Origin: Daucus carota subsp. sativus
Taxonomy: Eukaryota > Streptophyta > Magnoliopsida > Apiales > Apiaceae
Direction of reading: 5' to 3'
DNA length: 64,000 nt
Assembly: GCF_001625215.2 (NCBI RefSeq)
Contig: NC_030385.2
Location: forward strand, 39,085,598 to 39,149,597
Under the pieces are notes generated by a model. That model ran no database searches. It saw only the letters and a program-made list of their open reading frames with translations, and had not been told where the DNA came from. The translations under genes were made by a program, and so were the position numbers. Within the stretch, counting starts at the first letter, position 1, and each line of letters begins with the position of its first letter. Positions 3,143-49,344 of the stretch are shown here, piece after piece.

Positions 3143-3481
3143 TGCAATGCGTCTCAGTAGAGTCACAGGGCAAGTGCTGACTTACTCAAGAAAGAATACA
3201 AAGAAGGGTAAAACAGACTTTGGTGCAGCACAGGTGGTTGAAAGTCAAACACAACAAGGCCAGGGGCATAGTCGTAATCTCAGCCTAATGGACAGTACTA
3301 GTATTGGGGAAAAGGGGGAGAAAGGAGCATCAGATTTGTGTGTGCTAAATTAGGTCAAGGAGAGTCGGGCCTCTCGAAAGTTCCGAACTATCGCTACATT
3401 TTCTTATTGTTTGCTTGTTTGTAATCGTTCAGTACTGATGTTGGGTGTTTTAATCAATTGGAATCTAGTCTGTGCATTCCA
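3143..3481 (+). repeat. Left LTR of the chromovirus
   Basis: 339 bp, TG...CA. It aligns along its whole length with 8277-8616. Differences include T/C near position 11, two G/A changes, and changes in the T-run and in the last 40 bp. It should contain the element's promoter. The short frame within it is the same reading frame that extends the polyprotein into the right LTR. Confidence 0.95.
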
Positions 3482-3484
3482 AAT

Positions 3485-3496
3485 TGGTATCAGAGC
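3485..3496 (+). promoter_or_regulatory. Primer binding site (initiator tRNA-Met)
   Basis: TGGTATCAGAGC lies 3 bases after the left LTR. It is the standard plant retrotransposon PBS complementary to the 3' end of initiator tRNA-Met, where reverse transcription is primed. Confidence 0.93.
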
Positions 3497-3505
3497 GCTC
3501 GATCG

Positions 3506-6500
3506 ATGGGGCCACCGACTGTTACGCAACGAGTGGACACCCTCGAAGAGAAGGTATTAGATCTGGACGAAACCTTGAAAGAGATGGTATCCCAGACTGT
3601 TGGCAAGGCGATGGACGCGATGCGCCATTCCTTAACAGAGGTTTTGCTCGAGGGTCAGAGTTTGGCAGTGAAGAAGATGGGGGCTGAGTTTGAAGCCCTT
3701 ACTGGGCGTTTGGAGGGACGGGTGAATCGCAGTCGTGAGCATCATGAGACGTTGATTAATACGATGAGAAACGACCAGCTGAAATTTCAGGCTGATGTTC
3801 GTTCCACTCTTGAGAAGCTTGATGCCAGTGCACATCGTTCCGATCCGTTAGTGAGTCCTGTTAACTCGGCGTTAGGTGGTGGTGGTGGTGACAACGGGGG
3901 TCGATTTCAGACTCGTGATGGCGTGGGGGGTTCCAATGGCGGTAGATCCCCAGTTGGGGGGCATGGTTTGGGTCCGGGACCGGGTAATTGGCGGTATAGG
4001 AAATTGGACATGCCGGTTTTTGACGGATCTGACCCGGATGGGTGGATCCTCCGTGTTGAAAGATATTTTGCTTTTTATCGCCTCACCGAGGACGAGATGC
4101 TGGAGGCTGTTGTGGTAGCAATGGAGGGGGATGCCCTGAGATGGTTGCAATGGGAACATAAGAGGCATCCAATACGCCGATGGGCTGATCTGAAACGTTT
4201 TGTGCTCCGCCAGTTCAGGTCCAGCAGTGGTGGGTCTTTGTATGAACAGTGGCTGTCCACTGCCCAAACAGCTACTGTCCACGACTATCGTCGTTCTTTT
4301 ATTGAGACATCAGCACCATTGGAGGGTCTCTCAGAGGACATTTTAATGGGCCATTTCATTAATGGACTCAAGGAGGAAATTCGCGCGGAGGTGCGTCTAT
4401 TAAACCCCATGTGTTTAGAACAAGCTATGGAACAGGCTATAAGGGTTGAAGAGAAATTGAAGGTGACTGGCCAACGCAAATTTTGGGGTGTTGCGAAATC
4501 GAGGGTGTTTTCTACTACCAGCCGAGGTGGTTCGTCTGTGGGTCAGTATTCAATTTCATCACCTGGCAGTTCACCTGGTAGTAAACACTGGGAGCTGCAA
4601 TCCACGGATTCACAGGCTTCAACCCAATCTACGGTTGCCTCTAGTCCACGTTCACAGACAGGCGGTGATGTGAGGCGCCTCACAGAGAGGGAATTACAGG
4701 AAAAGAGGGCAAATGGATTATGTTATAGATGTGATGCTAAGTGGTCTGTGGGGCATAGATGCAAGAAAAAGGAGCTGAGTGTGATGCTCATTATGGAGGA
4801 CGAAGGTGAACTGGATAGCACGGACAGTGATGTGCCTCTCTCACCTACTGAAGAGGTAATTTCTGAAGTATCACTTAATTCAGTAGTTGGTATTTCGAAT
4901 CCAAAAACAATGAAGTTGAAGGGATTGATTGGTAATCATGAGGTGGTTGTTATGGTCGACCCTGGAGCGACTCATAACTTCATATCGTTGGAAACGGTGG
5001 CAGCTACTGGTATTCGGGTGGAGAATTCGATGGGGTTCGGTGTTTCACTAGGTAATGGAGATGCAATAAAAGGGGAAGGGCTGTGTAAGGATGTGACTGT
5101 TCACCTTGACGGGGGCTTAGAGGTGACTGCTGATTTTTTACCTCTCAAGTTAGGTAGCACTGATGTAATATTGGGTATTGCTTGGTTGAAGAGGTTGGGG
5201 ACAGTGTTGACTGATTGGAAGGCTCAAGTGATGAGATTCGAGTGGAACGGAGAGCCAGTGACGTTGAAAGGTGATCCGTCCCTGGTGCATTCACAGGTGA
5301 CTTTAAAGGCAATGAGGCGGTTGTTAAGGAAGCCGTGTTTGAGTTTCTGGGTTGAATGTTATAGGGTGGAAGTCGACCACGAGTTCGCCAAGGGGTTACC
5401 TGAGCAGCCAAAGAAGACACCTGGTTTTGTGAAGGGGCTGTTGGAGCAATATTCACAGATTTTTTACATACATACGGGTCTGCCTCCTACCCGAAGTCAT
5501 GACCATGCTATTGTCCTTAAGGAAGGAAGCAATCCTATTATTGTACGGCCGTATAGGTACCCACAAGTGCAGAAAAATGAAATTGAGAAGATGATAGCTG
5601 AGATGTTGAGTGCAGGTATCATTAAACCGTCCACTAGTCCCTTTTCTAGTCCTGTATTGTTGGTAAAGAAAAAAGACGGTTCCTGGCGGTTTTGCGTTGA
5701 TTACCGTGCTTTAAACAAGGAGACGGTGGCTGATAAATATCCGATACCGATGATTGATGAGTTGTTGGACGAACTTCATGGGGCAACAATTTTCTCGAAG
5801 TTGGATCTTCGTTCGGGTTATCATCAGATATTAGTAAGGCCAGAAGATACGGCTAAGACAACTTTTCGGACTTCGGATGGGCACTATGAATTTCTTGTTA
5901 TGCCATTTGGATTGAAGAACGCCCCTGCTACTTTCCAATCCTTAATGAATGAGATTTTTCGGCCTTATTTGCGAAAGTTTGTGCTCGTATTTTTTGACGA
6001 TATTTTAATCTATAGTGCCACCCCAGCAGAGCATCTGACACATTTACAGGAGGTGTTGGGCGTGCTTGCTAAAAATACTTTATTCGCCAACTTGAAGAAG
6101 TGTGAGTTTGCACAGCCGGTAATTGGCTATTTAGGCCATGTTATTTCGAAGGATGGCGTAGCTGTTGATCTGGACAAGGCAGCAGCGATGATAGAATGGC
6201 CTTCTCCTCGCAATCTACGTGATTTAAGGGGATTTTTGGGTTTGACAGGGTATTACAGGAAGTTCGTGGCCGGCTATGCCACCATTGAACACCCATTGAC
6301 ACTCTAGTTAAGGAAGGATAATTTTCACTGGTGTGAGGCAGCTGAGGAAGCTTTTGTGAATTTGAAGAGAGCTATGTCAAGTCCCCCTGTTTGGCTGTTT
6401 TGGCTATGCCAGACATTAACCAGCCTTTCGTTATCGAGGCTGATGCCTCTGGTTTTGGAGTTGGAGCCGTCTTGATGCAACAGGGGAGGCCAGTCGCCTA

Positions 6501-8487
6501 TTTCAGTAAATTATTGGGTGTACGCGCTCAACAAAAGTCAATATATGAAAAGGAGCTCATTGCAATTTGTTTGGCTATTCTGAAGTGGAAACCATACCTC
6601 CTTGGGAGACATTTCATAGTCCGGTCAGACCAACAGAGTTTGCGTTTTCTAATGGAGCAGAGGGAAGTGAATCACGAGTATCAAAAGTGGGTGACTAAAC
6701 TTTTGGGGTTTAATTTTGAAATTCAGTACAAAACTGGTGCTTCGAACAAGGTTGCCGACGCGTTATCACGCAAGCAGACTGGAACTGTGGCTTTGAATGC
6801 TTTAGTTACGTCCCCAGTAGTGTCTTGGGAGGAACTGGACAAGGAGATTTCACAAGATATTTTTCTCCAGCGTCTACGAAATGAGATGCAGAGCCCAGAC
6901 CGAAGTGAGTCGCATTTTTGCATCACAGACAACAGAGTGTTGTACAAGGGGCGATGTGTCATTCCCCGTTCTTCGAAGTTTTGTTCTATATTGCTACATG
7001 AATACCATAGTTCAGCTGTGGGTGGTCACGCCGGGGAATTGAAAACATACATGCGTCTTGCTACTGATTGGTACTGGCAGGGTATGAGACGTGATGTGGC
7101 GGAGTTTGTGAAAAGTTGTGTGGTATGTTAGGAGCAAAAGTACTCCCAGCGTTCCCCGGCAAGTTTGCTTCAACCACTTCCAATTCCGAATCAAGTTTGG
7201 GAAGATATCTCTATGGACTTCATTGAAGGGCTGCCGACATCTCAAGGTGTTAATGTGATTCTTGTGGTTGTGGATCGTTTCACTAAATATGCGCACTTTA
7301 TAGGGCTTAAACACCCATTGGACGCTTTCAAAGTTGCAGCAGCTTTTACTAAGGAAGTCGTCAGATTACATGGGTTCCCTAAGTCTATTGTTTCTGATCG
7401 GGATCGAGTGTTCCTTAGTACATTCTGGCGTGAGTTGTTCAGGTTGCATAGGACTGAACTCAAGCGTAGCACCTCGTATCACCCACAAACAGACGGGCAG
7501 TCGGAATTGGTCAATAAATGGTTGGAATGTTACCTGCGTTGTTTCATTGGGGGGCAGCCAATGGCTTGGGCTAGATGGTTGCATTGGACGGAATTTTCGT
7601 ACAACACATCCCCACATGTGTCTACAAAAGTTAGTCCTTTTAAGGCAGTTTATGGGCGGGATCCTCCACACTTAGCTAGGATTCCCAGAGGTCAGACTCA
7701 AGTCTGCAGTTTGGAGGAAAGTTTGTAGGAACGGGATGCGATTTTGGATGAGCTCCGTTTTAATCTGATTCGAGCACAGCAAGTAATGAAAGTGTCTGCT
7801 GATCGAAAGAGGAGGGAGGAGGAGTTTAAGGAAGGGGACCTGGTATTCCTAAAGTTACAGCCTTATCGACAGCAGTCGCTTGCTCGGCGTCCATTTAAGA
7901 AGTTATCAGCCAGATATTATGGGCCGTATAAGGTACTTCAGCGTATTGGCAAGGTGGCTTATCGCCTTCAACTGCCACAGTCGTCCAGGATTCATTCGGT
8001 GTTCCATGTATCTCAGTTAAAACGCGCCATTGGCACTGCACATGTTTCATCTGAACTTCCGCCTCAGTTGTCCACTACCTTGGAGTTAGTAGTGCAGCCG
8101 GAATCTCTGCTAGAAGTAAGACAAGTGAAGGTCGGTAACAATTATCGCAAGGAGGTACTAATTAAATGGAAGCATCTGCCATCTTTTGAGGCCACCTGGG
8201 AAGATGCTCAGTTGTTGAACAATCAGTTTCCAACCTTCCACCTTGAGGGCAAGGTGAGTCTTTGGGAGGGGGGTATTGCAATGCGTCCCAGTAGAGTCAC
8301 AGGGCAAGTGCTGACTTACTCAAGAAAGAATACAAAGAAGGGTAAAACAGACTTTGGTGCAGCACAAGTGGTTGAAAGTCAAACACAACAAGGCCAGGGG
8401 CATAGTCGTAATCTCAGCCTAATGGACAGTACTAATATTGGGGAAAAGGGGGAGAAAGGAGCATCTGATTTGTGTGTGCTAAATTAG
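3506..8487 (+). pseudogene. Gag-pol polyprotein with chromodomain, disabled
   Basis: The likely start is ATG 3506, just after the PBS. The domains in order are: coiled gag N-terminus; retrotransposon gag core (about 4000-4480); a zinc knuckle with Cys-x2-Cys then Gly-His-x-Cys (about 4718-4765); aspartic protease with DPGATHNF (about 4945-4985); reverse transcriptase with FFDDIL (about 5530-6240); RNase H (from about 6395); integrase with an HHCC-type zinc region and a D,D-E core (about 6990-7700); and a chromodomain (about 8090-8250). The frame breaks at TAG 6305, an 8-bp duplication (TTTGGCTG) near 6390, TAG 7129 and TAG 7726. Each stop stands where a CAG codon is expected. The last frame reads into the right LTR and stops at 8487. 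It is not expected to give a full polyprotein. Confidence 0.93.
8264..8273 (+). promoter_or_regulatory. Polypurine tract
   Basis: GGGAGGGGGG lies 3 bases before the right LTR, in the position used to prime plus-strand synthesis in LTR retrotransposons. Confidence 0.88.
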
Positions 8488-10463: not shown

Positions 10464-10775
10464 CTCCCTCCATCCCAGTCAATTCTATACAGTTTCCTTT
10501 TTGGTCCGTCCCATGATTTCTATACATTCCAAAAATAGTAACTTTTAATAATATAAAACACTATTACACCTACTACTTTCTTCCACTATCTTCATTCTAT
10601 AATAATATAAACACTATTACACCCACTACTTTCCTCCACTATCTCAAATCTATCCTTAAATATAAATGGGTCCCACCACTTTACCCATTTTTTCTCTAAC
10701 TTTACCCACTTTTTACACTTTTTCTTGGTCTCCGTGTCCAAACCATTTGTATATAAATCACTGGGACGGAGGGAG
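10464..10775. mobile_element. Stowaway-like MITE, copy 2
   Basis: Starts CTCCCTCCATCCC and ends GGGACGGAGGGAG, with TA on both sides (10462-10463 and 10776-10777). It is the uninterrupted relative of the element at 11343-12515. It contains an internal duplication in which AACACTATTACACC...ACTACTTTC occurs twice. Confidence 0.85.
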
Positions 10776-11106
10776 TACATATTTAGCTAAATAACAAAGT
10801 TTTAGCCGGAACGTCATATTTTAGAAGTACAATTTGCCATCTTTAACGTATCTCTTCTGAAAATATTTATACTGTATATAGCATTCAATTTATTTAGCAA
10901 TCATTCTCGTATACATCTCTGCTCCTGGCCAATTCTAGATAACATTAAACATATTTGATAGAGTATAACTATAAGAGTTAAAAAATTAAAAAAAATACAT
11001 ATACGTCAAATATCCTATATTTTTATAAATCTCAAAATTCATCTATCAAACTATCAGTTTATGATAAAAATTGAATTCAACTTTATATCCAATAAGGAAA
11101 ATGCTT

Positions 11107-11264
11107 GGTGCACATAATTGTGTACAAAAACATGTACATAATGACATGTGACGGATTTTAATTGGATGGCCCCCCTGCATTTACACCAACCACCCCAATT
11201 AAAACCCACCACATCACTTGCCACATCATTATGTACAAATTTTCTGTACACAATTATGTGCACC
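11107..11264. mobile_element. Short MITE with long terminal inverted repeats
   Basis: GGTGCACATAATTGTGTACA at the left end is repeated in inverse at the right end. The inverted similarity continues inward through GTACATAATGA, so most of the 158 bp can fold on itself. It has no coding capacity. I could not define a clear target duplication, so the superfamily is open. Confidence 0.65.
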
Positions 11265-11342
11265 TAGCACTACTCATCCAATAAATTTATTGGTTGGGAC
11301 TCGGGGGAGTGAGCGAAGCTTAAGATTCTATAATTTTTAATA

Positions 11343-12515
11343 CTCCCTCCGTCCCAGTCATTTGTATACAAATGGCTGGGACACGGAGACCAAGAAACTG
11401 GGTAAGAAATGAGTAAAGTTGGATGAAAAGTGGGTATAGTGGTGGGACCCATTTATATTTAATAATAAATTTGAGACAGTGGAGGAAAGTAGTGGGTGTA
11501 ATAGTGTTTAGAGGTCGTTTGGTTGACAGTAAATTATGAGGGTATTTAAAATACCTGGGAAGTAAGGATCCACCTAATTGTTTGGTTTACCAAAAACACG
11601 TGAAGTTTAAGTTGCTGGGAACTTCTAGTAGCTGTAAAACATAGGAAGTCACTTACCCACTCTCCCCTCGTTAACTCACACATCCAACACTTACCCACTC
11701 TCCCCTCGTTAACTCACACTTCCAACATTTTTGTAAAGTTAATGTTTGTACAATATGCTAGTAACAATATATAAAATATTCTACTATATATATTAATACA
11801 TATATAAAAGATTATTATTGTTTTTATATTATTATTATTATTATATGTAACTCAAAATATTATTGCTAAATTATTTTTCTTTATTAAAACATTGAATATG
11901 TTATTTTAATTCAATTAAAAATATTGAGAAAATAATAATGTATTAATAATATTATTTTGTCAAAATTTTATAAATATAATCTAATCTATGGTTAGGAATA
12001 AGTTTGAATAATTAATTTATTTAATAACTTTATATACAAATTTTATATAAAATAAAAAAATGATTCTATTAAAAAAAATTCATTGTGTAATTGTCAATAT
12101 GTAATATTTTTATCGCCAAATAATTTTGGATTTATTTTTAAAATACATATAATTATGTATAATTATTATTTTTATCAAAAAATAATATTTATCATTTAGT
12201 TATAATAAAAGATATTATAATTATTAAATTATATCATCTTTAAAATACAAAAAAACAATATGAGAGAAGTATAATACCTCACGTGTCAACCAAACAATTT
12301 TATGGTACTTCCCTGGTATTTAACAAAGATAGGAAGTAGATATTACTGTAGGAATTTATTTCCCTGATACCAAACAAGCACTTATATTATTATAGAACGG
12401 AGATAGTGGAAGAAAGTAGTTGGTGTAATGATGTTTTATATTATAAAAGTTTACTACTTTTGGCATGTATACAATTGATGGGACGTCCCAAAAAAATTCA
12501 TTGGGACGGAGGGAG
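11343..12515. mobile_element. Stowaway-like MITE, copy 3, interrupted by another MITE
   Basis: Termini CTCCCTCCGTCCC and GGGACGGAGGGAG are flanked by TA (11341-11342 and 12516-12517). Removing 11511-12381 plus one TTA joins ...AGTGTTTA to TATTATTATAG..., matching the reverse complement of copy 2. The element was therefore intact before the second insertion. Its orientation is opposite to copies 1 and 2. Confidence 0.85.
11511..12381. mobile_element. PIF/Harbinger (Tourist)-like MITE nested in the Stowaway copy
   Basis: Begins GAGGTCGTTTGGTTGACAG and ends ...ACCAAACAAGCAC. The two ends are imperfect inverted repeats, and further inverted similarity (CTGGGAAGTA...TACTTCCCTGG) lies inside. It is flanked by TTA (11508-11510 and 12382-12384), the Harbinger target site. 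871 bp, AT-rich interior, no coding frame. Confidence 0.72.
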
Positions 12516-31698: not shown

Positions 31699-31871
31699 AT
31701 GGGGAATGAAGATAGTAGCGATAGTCAGGTGAAAGTAAAGGTGGAAAAAGGCAAGCCAACACACGGCGGAAGATACGTGGAATACAATGTCATGGGCAAT
31801 CTCTTCCACCTCTCTTCTATCTACGCCCCTCCCGTTCAACTCCTTGGCTGTGGCTCCTATGGCGTCGTCTG
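31699..31871 (+). CDS. Upstream MAP kinase first exon (alternative first exon or orphan duplicate)
   Basis: ATG 31699 opens 57 codons plus 2 nt, ending at a GTGAGT donor (31872). It encodes MGNEDSSDSQVK..., then THGGRYVEYNVMGNLFHLSS, APPVQLLG and the Gly-rich loop GCGSYGVV. This is the N-terminal exon of a group B (MPK4-type) plant MAPK. THGGRYVEYNVMGNLF is closer to the usual MPK4 N-terminus than the exon at 34181 is. No matching second exon occurs before 34181, but the phase is identical to that exon's. It could therefore splice to exon 2 at 34861 (predicted 377 aa), or be a leftover of a tandem duplication. The downstream intron begins with a long CT-rich tract. Confidence 0.75.
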
Positions 31872-32385
31872 GTGAGTCTCTCTCTCTCCCCCTCCCTCCC
31901 TCCCTCTCCCCCCTCCCCCTTCTCTCTCTCTCTCTCTCTCTCTCGATAATGCACTTTCATTTCATACTTTAGAACACAACTATTAGTCTACTACATGTCC
32001 AAATTATATCCAGGATTTAAAATATGAACATACTAAATCAAGTTCAGTCATGCCAATTTTGAAAGAAGCATAATGGCAAAGTGGTTGTGGTTAACCTGCT
32101 TTCCTTCAAATCTTATACACAAACAACTATATAATCTTCATTGCATTAATTTACAGAATTTAATCTTAGTTAATTTCATATTTTCCTGTTTCGATTATTT
32201 TGTTATGATGGCCGTCGGGATCTCAGTCAGATCGTATAGCGATCATGGTTTTATCCATAATCATCTATCCGAATTTTGAGTGTCCACTCCTCCTCTACTA
32301 TCTATTTCCAAGCCCTTTCCTAATTACACAGCTTTTGCTTCTATAGAAAATTATAAACTCACAAATATCACTCGTTCTACTTCAA

Positions 32386-32541
32386 CAAAAACCAAAGCCC
32401 TTCATCGCTCTGCCTCCAGTACTCAAATTCCAACTTCTTGGCCATGGTTTTATCGAAAACAGCCTCCAAATTAGATGTATCGGTGCATTCCACTTTCGCT
32501 TCTCGCTGTGTTCGACGTTCACTTCCCAGGTCAAAGATGGG
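32386..32541 (+). pseudogene. GAD: GAD 5' fragment, sense arm of an inverted duplication
   Basis: Includes about 58 nt of 5' leader and ATG 32444, then [20 protein letters not shown] and [13 protein letters not shown], the well-conserved N-terminus of plant glutamate decarboxylase (glutamate to GABA, calmodulin-regulated). After KMG the sequence jumps into an inverted copy. The arm pairs with 32632-32787 with 13 differences in 156 nt. Confidence 0.85.
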
Positions 32542-32787
32542 AACAATGCCAAGTTCAGCCTCGAGTTCCCATTGAGCATCAGCTCGTCGTTGATTATCTG
32601 GTATGCCGCATCTTTCGGCATCAAATTCTCCCCCATCTTTGACCTGGGAAGTGAATGTCGAACACAGCGAGAAGCGAAAGTGGAATGCACGGATATGTCT
32701 GATTCGGAGGCTGTTTTCGATAGAACCATGTCTAAGAAGTTGGGATTTCAGTACTTGAGGCAGAGAGATGAAGGGCTTTGGTTTTTG
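32542..32787 (-). pseudogene. GAD: GAD 5' fragment, antisense copy (loop plus second arm)
   Basis: On the minus strand, ATG at 32727-32729 starts [40 protein letters not shown] and [23 protein letters not shown] residues 1 to about 56. The part after KMG forms the 90-nt loop (32542-32631); the part before it plus the 5' leader forms the arm (32632-32787). The frame then continues into the complement of the sense arm, so no real GAD protein results. Confidence 0.85.
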
Positions 32788-32893
32788 TACGAGCTGATGC
32801 TCGATGAGAACCCGAGGCTGAAGTTGGATCGTTCGTGACAATATGGATGGAGCCAGAATGTAATAAGCTGATGATGGATTCTGATGACACCTA
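32788..32893 (+). pseudogene. GAD: GAD fragment continuing in sense orientation
   Basis: Plus strand again: ELMLDENPRLKLD, then after a 1-nt shift SFVTIWMEPECNKLMMDSDD and a stop. This corresponds to GAD residues about 48-80. The segment duplicates part of the loop region in the other orientation, so the locus contains GAD pieces in the order sense, antisense, sense. The following sequence to 33037 includes a possible further coding-like stretch (VQKEDDLVTEDPKWMEV) that I cannot identify. Confidence 0.75.
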
Positions 32894-33202
32894 ATTTTCC
32901 CCTCTGGCCTATGGCACACTAGGGTTAACTTTTATCTGTACACTCAAGGCGTCCAGAAAGAAGACGACCTCGTTACAGAAGACCCCAAGTGGATGGAAGT
33001 CAGAGCCCAGTCAGAAGGTAGAAATCCCGATGGCCAATTACGGATAAAACCATGATCAGTACGGATACGATCTGAAATCCCGACAGCCATCAGTTATTAT
33101 ATTTTGTTCTCATGCTTTAGGTTGTTTCATAGTAAACCTGCTTAATTCTTGCCAAGATGCTTTTGGTGCATATGGGGAAATAATGTGTAGAATACCTCAA
33201 TG

Positions 33203-33649
33203 CTAAGTTACCCGGACACGGGTATGGGTATCGGACACGGGTACAGATCCAAGAGTCAGATTCGTAGTTTTAGGATAATTAGGATTCATGTATGGATCCG
33301 GAATTAGACTCGGGTACGGGGACTTGGCACTTAAGTTCCACGCAAGTAAAACTTTATATAGACTGATTTATTATACATTCATAAAAATAGTGTCTATTGC
33401 ACATTAATCACATAAACTGAAAATTGAAGCATAAAATCAATAGAACAACATAGAAACAAGTCATTCATGGATCTTGATCTCTATAAAAAAAATTGAAACA
33501 AGGCCTAAGTTTTCATTTTGACCTGGTATGTTACAGGTGAAGTGTCCGGTTGTAATAAAAAGGATCCGACTCAGATCCCATACCCACACCCATGTCATGT
33601 CCGGTGGACACGGGTATAGGCACAAAAATGGAGAGTCCGGGTAACATAG
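33203..33649. mobile_element. hAT-type MITE
   Basis: Starts CTAAGTTACCCGGAC and ends GTCCGGGTAACATAG. A perfect 8-bp duplication, CCTCAATG, flanks it (33195-33202 and 33650-33657). The interior has repeated GGACACGGGTA-type motifs near both ends. 447 bp, no coding frame. Confidence 0.88.
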
Positions 33650-34180: not shown

Positions 34181-36610
<2,430 letters not shown>

Positions 36611-46100: not shown

Positions 46101-46188
46101 TACTTGTGTACTTAAATTTTATAATGAAAATTATAGAAAAAATTATTTATCTTACTTGTGTTCCCATCAAAAAAAATAAAATATATCT

Positions 46189-46219
<31 letters not shown>

Positions 46220-46766
46220 TATATATATGCCAACATTCCAGAGAGGGACTCTTTATATAGAGTTACATAGTGCGCTACTATAAATCATCAATTTTATTAT
46301 AAATTCTGTTATAGAATACATATAAAACGTGTTTCTAATATAGAATACTATAAAATAAATCTATTTTAAGTAATTTAACACTTAATATTTGATTAATAAA
46401 AGTATATTTTCGAAACTGATTCTATAACAGAATAATTCTGGATGATTATTATTATGTTATAGAATCATGTTGAGATATTGCGTAATTTTAGATGATCTTT
46501 GGAATAAAAAAATTGTATAACTTCGTTTTCGGTTTAATAATCAAAATTTGCAATTATATTTCATAAAAGATATAATAGAATATATATTATGTATATATTT
46601 ATAATGGTGTGCTACGTAACTCCATATAAGAGGGTATGCTATGGAGTGCTACCCTATATATATATATATATAATATGAGTTAAGTTCTATGGAGACCGCT
46701 ACTTCATCGGAGACCGTGGAGAACATTTATGTTATGTGAAGAAAACATTACAAATGTATTATCTAA

Positions 46767-46821
<55 letters not shown>

Positions 46822-49344
46822 TTTAGGAAGACCACTATTGCATTAAATATTTTGAAAATTATGTAAGTTTTGCAAGCAAAATATTGCAAAACGGATTTTT
46901 CTGCAAAATATGTTTTACAAGTTACAATACATGTTATACTTTTAGAACATACATAATTTTTATGATTTTCAATGAAATAGTGGTCTTTATATAACATGTC
47001 TAGCAAAAGATTGCATTTCACAATATTTTAATCGAAAAACATATATGCTCTCCGGGGTTTCTAATGATACTTGGTCTCTATAGAACTTTTAAGATTTTAA
47101 TGCATCAATAAAATATAGTTCTGCAACTTATTTTTAAGATTTTCTTTTTCTGTATAAAAATATAACATTCATATTTTTACACAAAAGAAGAAAATTTTAA
47201 AAATGAGTTCTAGAACAATATTTTATAAGAGTCTTAAAATGCGTGCCGAGCAGTGAAAAACAAAAGTATACAATTGAATGGGACGGAGAGAGTAATTTAC
47301 AAGAGCTTTCTGGTAAATATCCATTTCTAAAAGACTGCAAGGTTTTGAAATTAGAAGTGGTGTATTTCCATAGCTCCGTCCCAGTTTAACAGTATTTTCG
47401 TATACAGATATGAGAAGGAGCTAATAGTTGCTGTTGGTAAAGGGGAACCTGCTGATGTGATGACTGAATATGGTTTTAAGTAAGATGCGCCCTTGTTTAT
47501 AAATGAAATATCTTAATTGGTCTATGTTTTCTTTTTTATAATTTTTTCTGCTCCCTTAAATTTATTTCAGAAATGTTGTCTCCATGGATGAATATGCATC
47601 ATGCTTTGACAGCATTGATCCCTTGGAACAATATAAGAATTGGAGATTGGATAGCCAGAAAAGCTCTTCCAAGACCAGCATTTCCTCACAAAGAGTGAAG
47701 GCAGCATTCATCGTTAGTGATCCTATTGATTGGGGAAGAGACATTCAGGTTAGTTTCATTATTTTTAACTGCATTTTTTCAATTTATTTTGCCAGTGTTT
47801 GATTGTATAATCTCATGAACAACACTATTTATTAAAATCCTTGTATTTTGTGCATTGTTAGATTGTCACTTCTTGACTTTTTTGCTTATTTCGAAATATG
47901 TTGGATTCATTATAGTCACTCCTGAGCTCTTAGTTCCTCAAATCCCCTATTTTCTTACTTTTACTAAGTATTTAGGCTGTGTTATCCTCTGCTCTTAGGT
48001 TCTTTGTGACATATTACGAACTGGAGGTCTCCCTGGAACAGAAATTGCACATCAGCCACATCTTTATTTTGCCAATGACGACATCGACTACCAGGTTGGT
48101 TACAAATTCGATTGTAGGTCAATTAAATTGATTCACTGGTTACAAAAATTTGATAAGATACTGATGAAATGCTACCTTAGATAGGCTGTGTTTCCGTCGG
48201 AAAGGCTTGGTATGGCTGCTTTCAGGATTGCATTAGAGTCGATATTTAACAGGTAAAGTTGAACACACCTTTCTGAATGTAGCGCCAGCTGCATAGTATT
48301 AATTTTTAAATGCTATGTTCTCTTTGTTCTGGAGTTCAAATTTAACATTCTTGCACAACATTTTCCTGCTTTATTTCCATTGGTTGTAGTTTGGATCCAA
48401 CTGCAATGTAATAAGACTAGTATAATTTCTCTACTCTAGCGCCATTTACACATAATGTGATAATCAGTTATCAGGATGGATAAATGAGGGCAGTTTGCTA
48501 GTGGCTTCTCTGTTGACTGATAATAATAGAAATCATCTTTAACTCTATATTCCTGAATATGTGTTATCTAATTATTTCTAGAATTTGTAATATGCAGAAT
48601 TCATCCAAAACCGCTGGAGTATACATCGTTTGGGAAGCCCAAACCGTTCGTTTTTCGAAATGCTGAGATAGTACTTAAGGACCTCTTGCCATTACTTGTT
48701 CATGACCCTCAGGATGCAAAACCTGGGAATATTGATAATCATTGTTTCAAGACCTTGTACATGATAGGGGATAATCCTGCCATTGACATTAATGGTGCAC
48801 GTCAGGTTTGTTTACATTGGGCCAGTTTATTTGATGTTGATTTAATGCTTTGAGGTTAATGTGCAAGTTGTATATGTATGTCATATTTCAGGCGGGACAA
48901 CCTTGGTTTTCCATTTTAACGAGAACAGGGGTATTCAAGGGAAAAGAAAATCATGCAGAGCACCCGGCAGATTTGGTATGTTTAATCCCTGTATTGTATG
49001 TTTAAGTTGCATGTTTAAGTTGCTCCACTTTTACGTACCCGAACCTGGTTTCAGAAAAAGATACCTTGACCTGATTTCAAAGGTCAGAAATGTGAAATGC
49101 CTACACATTATTAGACATGCACCACAACCTTTTAAACTCTCAACATCCACTGTCAAAGGGCTAAATAAGAAAGATCCTTGAGAAACCTATCTACATACCC
49201 ATTGTTGAGGCTTTCTGGGGTATGTGATAATAGTTTTCCTTTATGGTAAAGGCTTTGATATAATCGCCTATATTATTTGTGCAGGTCGTTGATACCGTGG
49301 AAGAGGCAGTAGACTATATATTAAAAAGGGAGTGCATCTTGTAA
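43111..49344 (+). CDS. HAD-superfamily hydrolase, CECR5/HDHD5-like, 12 exons
   Basis: Exons: 43111-43253, 43394-43503, 44205-44240, 44514-44587, 45743-45783, 47408-47479, 47571-47748, 47999-48094, 48185-48252, 48598-48805, 48892-48975, 49285-49344. All junctions are GT..AG with matching phases; 389 aa, or 375 aa from ATG 43153. The later start gives MRFLKVISNGCSQNRRSK..., a basic, Ser-rich leader that looks mitochondrial. HAD motif I is FGIAFDIDGV, motif II VFLTNGGG, and motif IV MIGDNPAIDINGA. The family resembles human HDHD5/CECR5 and plant mitochondrial HAD proteins; the substrate is unknown (probably a phosphate ester). Introns contain AT microsatellites and a MITE. An hAT MITE sits just upstream. 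Confidence 0.93.
46192..46229. repeat. AT-rich microsatellite in HAD intron 5
   Basis: ATATCT repeats run into (AT)n. A second, longer (AT)n tract is at about 46771-46815. Both lie in the 1.6-kb intron between exons 5 and 6. Confidence 0.85.
46682..47090. mobile_element. MITE in HAD intron 5
   Basis: AAGTTCTATGGAGACC at the left end is matched in inverse by GGTCTCTATAGAACTTTT at the right end. A (AT)n tract and the inverted fragments TTTGCAAG/CTTGTAAAAC lie inside. Target duplication unclear. Confidence 0.55.

Follow-up and report, generated by a model that had tools for sequence, protein, structure and literature searches.

The window (the whole 64,000-nt stretch of carrot, Daucus carota subsp. 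sativus, that was analysed; C5:39085598-39149597) carries an 887-bp unit with inverted ends, between which three pieces of a glutamate decarboxylase (GAD) gene, here called S1, S2 and S3, lie in sense, antisense and sense orientation (Table 1). The unit follows 335 bp downstream of a MAP-kinase exon 1 that matches MPK4/MPK6. A second MAP-kinase exon was not found between this exon and the next MAP-kinase gene (34181-34900; best E 1.3). Exon 1 may be either a tandem copy that was truncated or an alternative first exon whose intron contains the GAD unit. Repeated GGACACGGGTA-like motifs occupy 33205-33640, downstream of the unit. Far upstream, at 3425-8487, consecutive frames of 960, 261, 198 and 252 aa are split by stops and look by eye like an interrupted gag-pol.

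Table 1 Features of the 887-bp unit and of the adjacent MAP-kinase exon (window positions)
Feature	Position	Strand	Basis or remark
MAP-kinase exon 1	31699-31871	+	open for 57 codons, then splice donor
Probable 5-bp target-site duplication GTTAT, left copy	32202-32206		base 32206 included only if one LTR-end T was lost; otherwise 4-bp GTTA, 32202-32205
Left end, like U5 (3′ end of the LTR) in a Ty3/Gypsy family, reverse complement, TGATGGCCGTCGGGAT...	32206-32261	-	alignments and shuffles
41 nt between left U5 and GAD	32262-32302		no match better than E 0.66 (10 loci and window compared)
S1: GAD promoter core (TATA region), 5′ UTR, exon 1 and first 12 bases of exon 2, no intron	32303-32541	+	205/240 columns identical to spliced C8 gene, 9 gap columns
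S2: GAD 5′ UTR and exon 1 fused to ~102 nt of exon 2, no intron, antisense	32542-32788	-	229/246 identical
S3: another GAD exon 2 piece, sense	32789-32881	+	88/94 columns identical
Non-GAD stretch with open 32-codon piece at 32924-33019 (VNFYLYTQGVQKEDDLVTEDPKWMEVRAQSEG)	32882-33036	+	155 nt; only self-match in genome
Right end, U5-like (LTR 3′ end), same family, forward, ...GAAATCCCGACAGCCATCA	33037-33092	+	alignments and shuffles
Probable target-site duplication GTTAT, right copy	33093-33097		flank comparison

Two opposed GAD arms form a predicted hairpin

The left arm of the inverted duplication (32385-32541) lies inside S1, and the right arm (32632-32788) lies inside S2 together with the 90-nt spacer that separates the two. 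Each arm is 157 nt long, and the arms are 92% complementary; they differ at 13/157 positions (8.3% divergence), and their longest runs of identity measure 34, 24 and 22 nt. A preliminary description of this locus had proposed two opposed GAD arms with 13 differences and a 90-nt loop that is also GAD sequence. Both proposals hold, with the arms one base longer than the 156 nt given there and the spacer identified as exon 2 in minus orientation; S3, the loss of the intron and the promoter sequence in the left copy were absent from that account. The predicted RNA fold of 32385-32788 has a free energy of -295.6 kcal/mol, compared with a mean of -109.5 (sd 5.75) for shuffled sequences (z -32.4), and none of 100 shuffles folded as well. 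A transcript of this stretch would thus be predicted to fold into a stem, as is asked of plant MIRNA and hairpin siRNA loci. The arm-bearing stretches match the GAD gene on contig C8 at E 2e-71 and 2e-57, which together with the z-score of the fold shows that the inverted duplication is not due to chance. Among the 11 inverted pairs listed in the window (arms of at least 45 nt, separation of at most 2 kb), the GAD pair is the second longest. Six of the others all fall within one AT-rich stretch (46140-46997), and a further inverted-repeat cluster, with arms of 170 and 113 nt that are 87-89% complementary, was observed at 10498-12494.

The GAD pieces lack the intron of their closest gene

The preliminary description had called for a search for the parental GAD gene, and searching the genome (441 Mb, 11 contigs) located a parental gene able to pair with the arms on contig C8. 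The best match to the unit, C8:29708957-29709571 (locus L009), has a 245-bp intron between exons 1 and 2, and two GAD genes on contig C1 (L010 and L011) are more distant from the unit; four candidates were scored in the genome search, and more GAD genes may exist. S1 and S2 each join exon 1 precisely to exon 2 and lack the intron of the parent to the base, which at the level of sequence is the precise intron absence by which reverse-transcribed host sequence is recognized. A further intron-free GAD copy was not present among the four candidates scored. The pentanucleotide CAGGT occurs at both splice sites of the parent intron. Translated in antisense, S2 aligns with residues 1-63 of Arabidopsis GAD1 (PDB 3hbx; E 6e-24), and the residues at the exon joint read SKMGEN in both S2 and L009, FKMPEN in L010 and FKISEN in L011. 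No Pfam match was obtained for the S2 peptide or for 32882-33036, and neither DNA or protein genome searches nor Pfam or PDB yielded a source for the latter stretch, whose 32-codon open piece is perhaps a second captured exon.

When S1, S2 and L009 were compared over 157 positions, 135 agreed in all three and 9 differed from L009 in both S1 and S2; private changes numbered 9 in S1 and 3 in S2, and one position differed three ways. Among the 9 differences common to S1 and S2, L010 or L011 carries the same base in six, two of which fall in the 5′ UTR, where alignment is poor; at two more, L010 and L011 have no base, and the last (alignment column 208) is absent from L009, L010 and L011 alike. 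S2 and S3, which differ in 5 other columns, also share a base in column 299 that is absent from all three GAD genes. On few bases, the bases shared by S1 with S2 and by S2 with S3 fit pieces that were copied from one captured sequence.

In gene coordinates, S1 extends to 2434 and S3 begins at 2479; the 44-nt gap between them is spanned by S2, which overlaps both (S3 by ~46 nt of gene sequence) and runs from exon 2 back across exon 1 to L009 position 2034. This inner limit of S2 lies ~34 nt past a TATA box, which is where a run-off cDNA would end by the usual distance from TATA box to transcription start. S1 continues for 76 nt upstream of the limit of S2, beyond the TATA box, and S2 ends near the expected start. 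The TATA region of S1 is 8 bases longer than that of L009 and still reads TTATAAAC; a second TATA-like site (1940 in L009) precedes the start of S1 by only 18 nt. In a check for a retroelement next to the parent gene that might account for read-through, exact TGATGGC/GCCATCA was sought in the 6 kb of L009, and a single GCCATCA was found, at 5461.

The ends of the unit resemble LTR 3′ ends of a Ty3/Gypsy family

The inverted ends align over 60 columns, with 47 identical positions, 5 mismatches and 8 gap columns, in agreement with the terminal inverted repeats proposed previously. The classification given to the unit at that stage, a transposon-like element, was right in general and missed the kind, as the ends resemble the U5 of a Ty3/Gypsy LTR and the captured GAD sequence is intron-free. 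The terminal 20-nt pattern, allowing 2 mismatches, occurs at 10 sites in 441 Mb, compared with 0 for either reversed control. Two of these sites are the ends of the unit itself. The remaining eight comprise five that mark the 3′ end of an LTR in elements with paired LTRs, two that are LTR-like (L018 and L024, by similarity to other pattern sites) and one (L019) that looks like chance. Four sites are the LTR pairs of two ~11-kb elements, one on C3 (64.21 Mb; LTRs 99.5% alike, target repeat AGTGT) and one on C4 (33.18 Mb; LTRs 99% alike, target repeat GTCTC), and site L017 belongs to a 2.6-kb element (L027 3912-6508) with 403-bp LTRs that are 93% alike and the target repeat CTTTC. The interior of this smaller element has an open stretch of 223 codons that matched no Pfam family. 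In the Ty3/Gypsy family, the 5′ LTR is followed by a primer-binding-site-like GTTGGCGCCGCCGCCGGGGAT, and the interior encodes gag, RT, RNase H, an extra RVT_3 domain and integrase, a domain set that with this primer site we take to be typical of the Tat/Athila lineage. In retroelement orientation, the terminus that the pattern matches is U5, at the 3′ end of the LTR.

Since the loci had been chosen by the first 20 nt, nt 22-56 were compared separately and without gaps. For the right end, identities (and the number of 5000 shuffles that scored as well) were 22/35 for L017 (0), 20/35 for L018 (1), 17/35 for L020 (36), 15/35 for L022 (195), 13/35 for L024 (524) and 7/35 for L019 (4091); for the left end they were, in the same order, 19/35 (3), 19/35 (6), 15/35 (169), 12/35 (1167), 11/35 (1585) and 9/35 (2467). 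With gaps, over nt 22-70, the left end was equalled by 0 of 1000 shuffles against L017 and 18 against L018, and the right end by 1 and 15; neither end reached significance at 5% against L020, L022, L024 or L019. Beyond the search pattern, the likeness to U5 is therefore weak for L020, weak and confined to the right end for L022, and not significant for L024. The right end is 75.5% identical over 49 nt to the LTR 3′ end in L027, and z-scores for the two ends against L017 were 4.8 and 7.1. No likeness to LTR starts was detected in six comparisons (two ends against three LTR starts; z -1.3 to 0.5). Judged by these alignments, both ends resemble U5 and face each other, clearly so against L017 and L018 only, and each carries a putative LTR terminus, TG...CA with U5 sequence, in U5 orientation. 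A solo LTR with a captured insert is disfavoured, as the left end is like U5 and unlike the three LTR starts tested. A direct terminal repeat, as formed by two LTRs, is absent from the unit; with its ends inverted, the unit is a derivative and not a standard LTR element.

Genome searches with the left end and with the right 231 nt returned only the unit and revealed no close relative of its U5; both searches were insensitive, given that one candidate was scored per search and that the left-end search missed the other end of the unit. Searches with the left end, the right end and an inner motif common to both ends yielded no further copy of the unit, counts that are lower bounds, and as far as they tell the unit appears to be single copy in the genome. 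The inner motif (3 mismatches allowed) had 38 non-self sites versus 12 for reversed controls, and the terminal motif did not adjoin it at any of the 18 of these 38 sites inspected by eye.

The right flank of the unit starts with GTTAT, and the left flank ends in the same five bases when the leading T of the left TGATGG is assigned to it, as would follow the loss of one of two T's; without this assumption of a lost T, the exact flanking repeat is the 4-bp GTTA. Given one T lost at the left junction, the two copies are a probable 5-bp target-site duplication. When sites were drawn at random from ~600 nt of flanking sequence nearby, 0.45% of draws agreed over 5 bp, 0.88% did so with one-base slack, and 0.8% gave an exact 4-bp repeat. 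Target duplications of 5 bp flank 3/3 family members that have both LTRs. Substitutions affect 5/52 aligned bases of the U5 ends and 13/157 of the GAD arms, and both inverted pairs may therefore be of similar age, although the numbers are small.

Discussion

We consider it reasonably probable that the unit is a single chimeric reverse-transcription product of a Ty3/Gypsy retrotransposon, into which GAD cDNA was drawn by template switching and which was inserted once. We infer the succession of template switches, the role of integrase and any transcript or silencing effect as follows. Minus-strand strong-stop cDNA of LTR elements begins exactly at the U5 end, and its jump to a GAD transcript therefore yields a U5-GAD chimera. 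Here, strong-stop cDNA would have jumped onto transcripts of the C8 GAD gene, and switching between GAD RNA and GAD cDNA would have produced the sense, antisense and sense pieces, with the inner limit of S2, near the expected transcription start, resembling a run-off end. A product with U5 at both termini would offer integrase two substrates, which could have been joined to the target beside the MAP-kinase first exon. Were the unit transcribed, either from that upstream exon or by way of the captured GAD TATA region, the RNA would form a long hairpin directed at the 5′ portion of the C8 GAD mRNA. Chimeric template switching has been described for plant LTR elements (PMC1950507; PMC13317346), and captures by terminal-repeat retrotransposons in miniature (TRIMs) are reported to consist of exons only and to have 5-bp duplications, unlike Pack-MULEs, which take up exons and introns (PMC4717578).

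Several observations speak against an origin by reverse transcription. The 5-bp flanking repeat requires one lost base, and the unit's U5 has no close relative among the search results, its likeness to L020 and L022 being weak and that to L024 not significant. S1 includes the TATA region, so it was not copied from an ordinary capped mRNA beginning at the limit of S2; and with CAGGT at both splice sites, the intron could have been deleted at the DNA level through 5 nt of microhomology. With GAD promoter sequence in one copy and this splice-site repeat, the chief rival is an origin in DNA alone, in which a mobile element or repair captured genomic GAD from promoter to exon 2, the intron was lost via CAGGT and a replication template switch added the inverted copy. 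The order of the switch points, with S2 bridging the gap between S1 and S3 and overlapping both, fits a single four-point template switch of the kind described for hairpin birth (PMC8794818). Such an origin nevertheless requires a further event, the exact loss of the intron, and leaves ends that are like LTR U5 and not like those of a DNA transposon, and we regard it as unlikely, though still alive. A Pack-MULE or other TIR DNA transposon with GAD fragments, as the locus had first been read, would account for inverted ends, host gene fragments and a size of ~0.9 kb, but we reject it as the main reading and hold it to be very improbable, since the ends match LTR 3′ ends, the flanking repeat of 4-5 bp and inverted ends of ~56 bp fall short of the 8-11 bp duplications and 100-500 bp TIRs usual for MULEs (PMC4858842), 9-bp flanks agree at no more than 6/9 positions (by eye, three end positions) and Pack-MULEs are described as including introns (PMC4717578), which the captured GAD lacks; cut-and-paste transposition in general is probably not how the unit arose.

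Whichever way the unit originated, it could be active as a hairpin small-RNA gene and regulate GAD, a functional reading that we find doubtful. The predicted stem is highly stable (z -32) and fits the C8 gene best, so that a GAD-silencing RNA from the predicted hairpin is possible. Exact matches to the spliced C8 gene were found for 4/219 21-mers of S1, 42/227 of S2 and 16/74 of S3, and matches with at most 3 mismatches for 158/219, 227/227 and 60/74, respectively. The other two genes were matched less, L010 by 24/219, 62/227 and 37/74 and L011 by 0/219, 5/227 and 6/74 at up to 3 mismatches, with 0 exact matches in either. Of the eight transitions between the arms, seven leave a G-U pair in a plus-strand transcript and one in a minus-strand transcript (two-sided P 0.07, post hoc); the GAD TATA region and MAP-kinase exon 1 lie on the plus strand as well. 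This excess is not significant and may at most be a faint hint that pairing was kept on the plus strand. Set against an active locus are the 8.3% divergence of the arms, the excess of private changes in S1 (9) over S2 (3) and the pairing broken by 6/13 arm differences on the plus strand and 12/13 on the minus strand. A transcript could arise via the captured GAD TATA region or by read-through from MAP-kinase exon 1, and read-through from a flanking gene has been proposed as the source of hairpin RNA from Mu killer in maize (PMC3440606). Mu killer is also like the unit in being a transposon-associated inverted duplication of part of a gene; it differs in that it derives from MuDR, targets its own transposon family and has had its silencing demonstrated in plants (PMC3440606).

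Exon capture by LTR elements, inverted arrays of retroelements and hairpins born from transposable elements are each already known. TRIMs and other LTR retrotransposons that capture genes, such as GmaRetroS15 of soybean and Bs1 of maize (as cited in PMC4717578), share with the unit LTR ends, intron-free host exons and a 5-bp duplication (in the unit, if one T was lost), but elements of that kind are described there with both LTRs, whereas the unit has only facing U5-like ends around an inverted host duplication. The Zma-SMART array of maize (AC220956), with tandemly arrayed TRIMs of which two are inverted, likewise holds inverted retroelement parts in one 5-bp duplication; it consists of TRIM units, with no host gene mentioned in the passages cited, and the unit has U5 ends alone (PMC4717578). 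Complex LTR elements of Triticeae resemble the proposed origin in their abnormal template switching by RT, single insertion and 5-bp duplication, but they fuse two retroelements via a common LTR, and the cited passages describe neither a host gene nor a hairpin (PMC1950507). In the inverted-duplication model for young plant MIRNA genes, for which routes via transposable elements and pseudogenes have been proposed, the locus is, as here, an inverted copy of the target gene; the non-MITE/pseudogene routes, as outlined in the source, bring together two neighbouring opposed copies, whereas for the unit one reverse-transcribed product would give the whole hairpin (PMC3237417). Facing U5 ends around an inverted, intron-free duplication of a host gene were not found among the open-licence literature matches listed.

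How hairpin small-RNA genes are born is an open question, as the usual model requires an inverted duplication of the target gene and leaves its mechanism vague. As proposed here, the carrot locus records a specific mechanism, with retroelement ends and intron-free host sequence in facing copies. We tentatively suggest, with rather less confidence than in the reverse-transcribed origin of the unit itself, that retrotransposon RT can make a gene-targeting hairpin locus in one step, with strong-stop cDNA taking up a spliced host transcript and template switches producing the inverted duplication, and that facing U5 ends would allow integrase to insert it with a stretch of the target's promoter. 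If true, this would add an RNA-mediated route to the inverted-duplication model of small-RNA gene birth, for which facing U5 ends within 1-2 kb and one 5-bp duplication would serve as a marker in genome scans.
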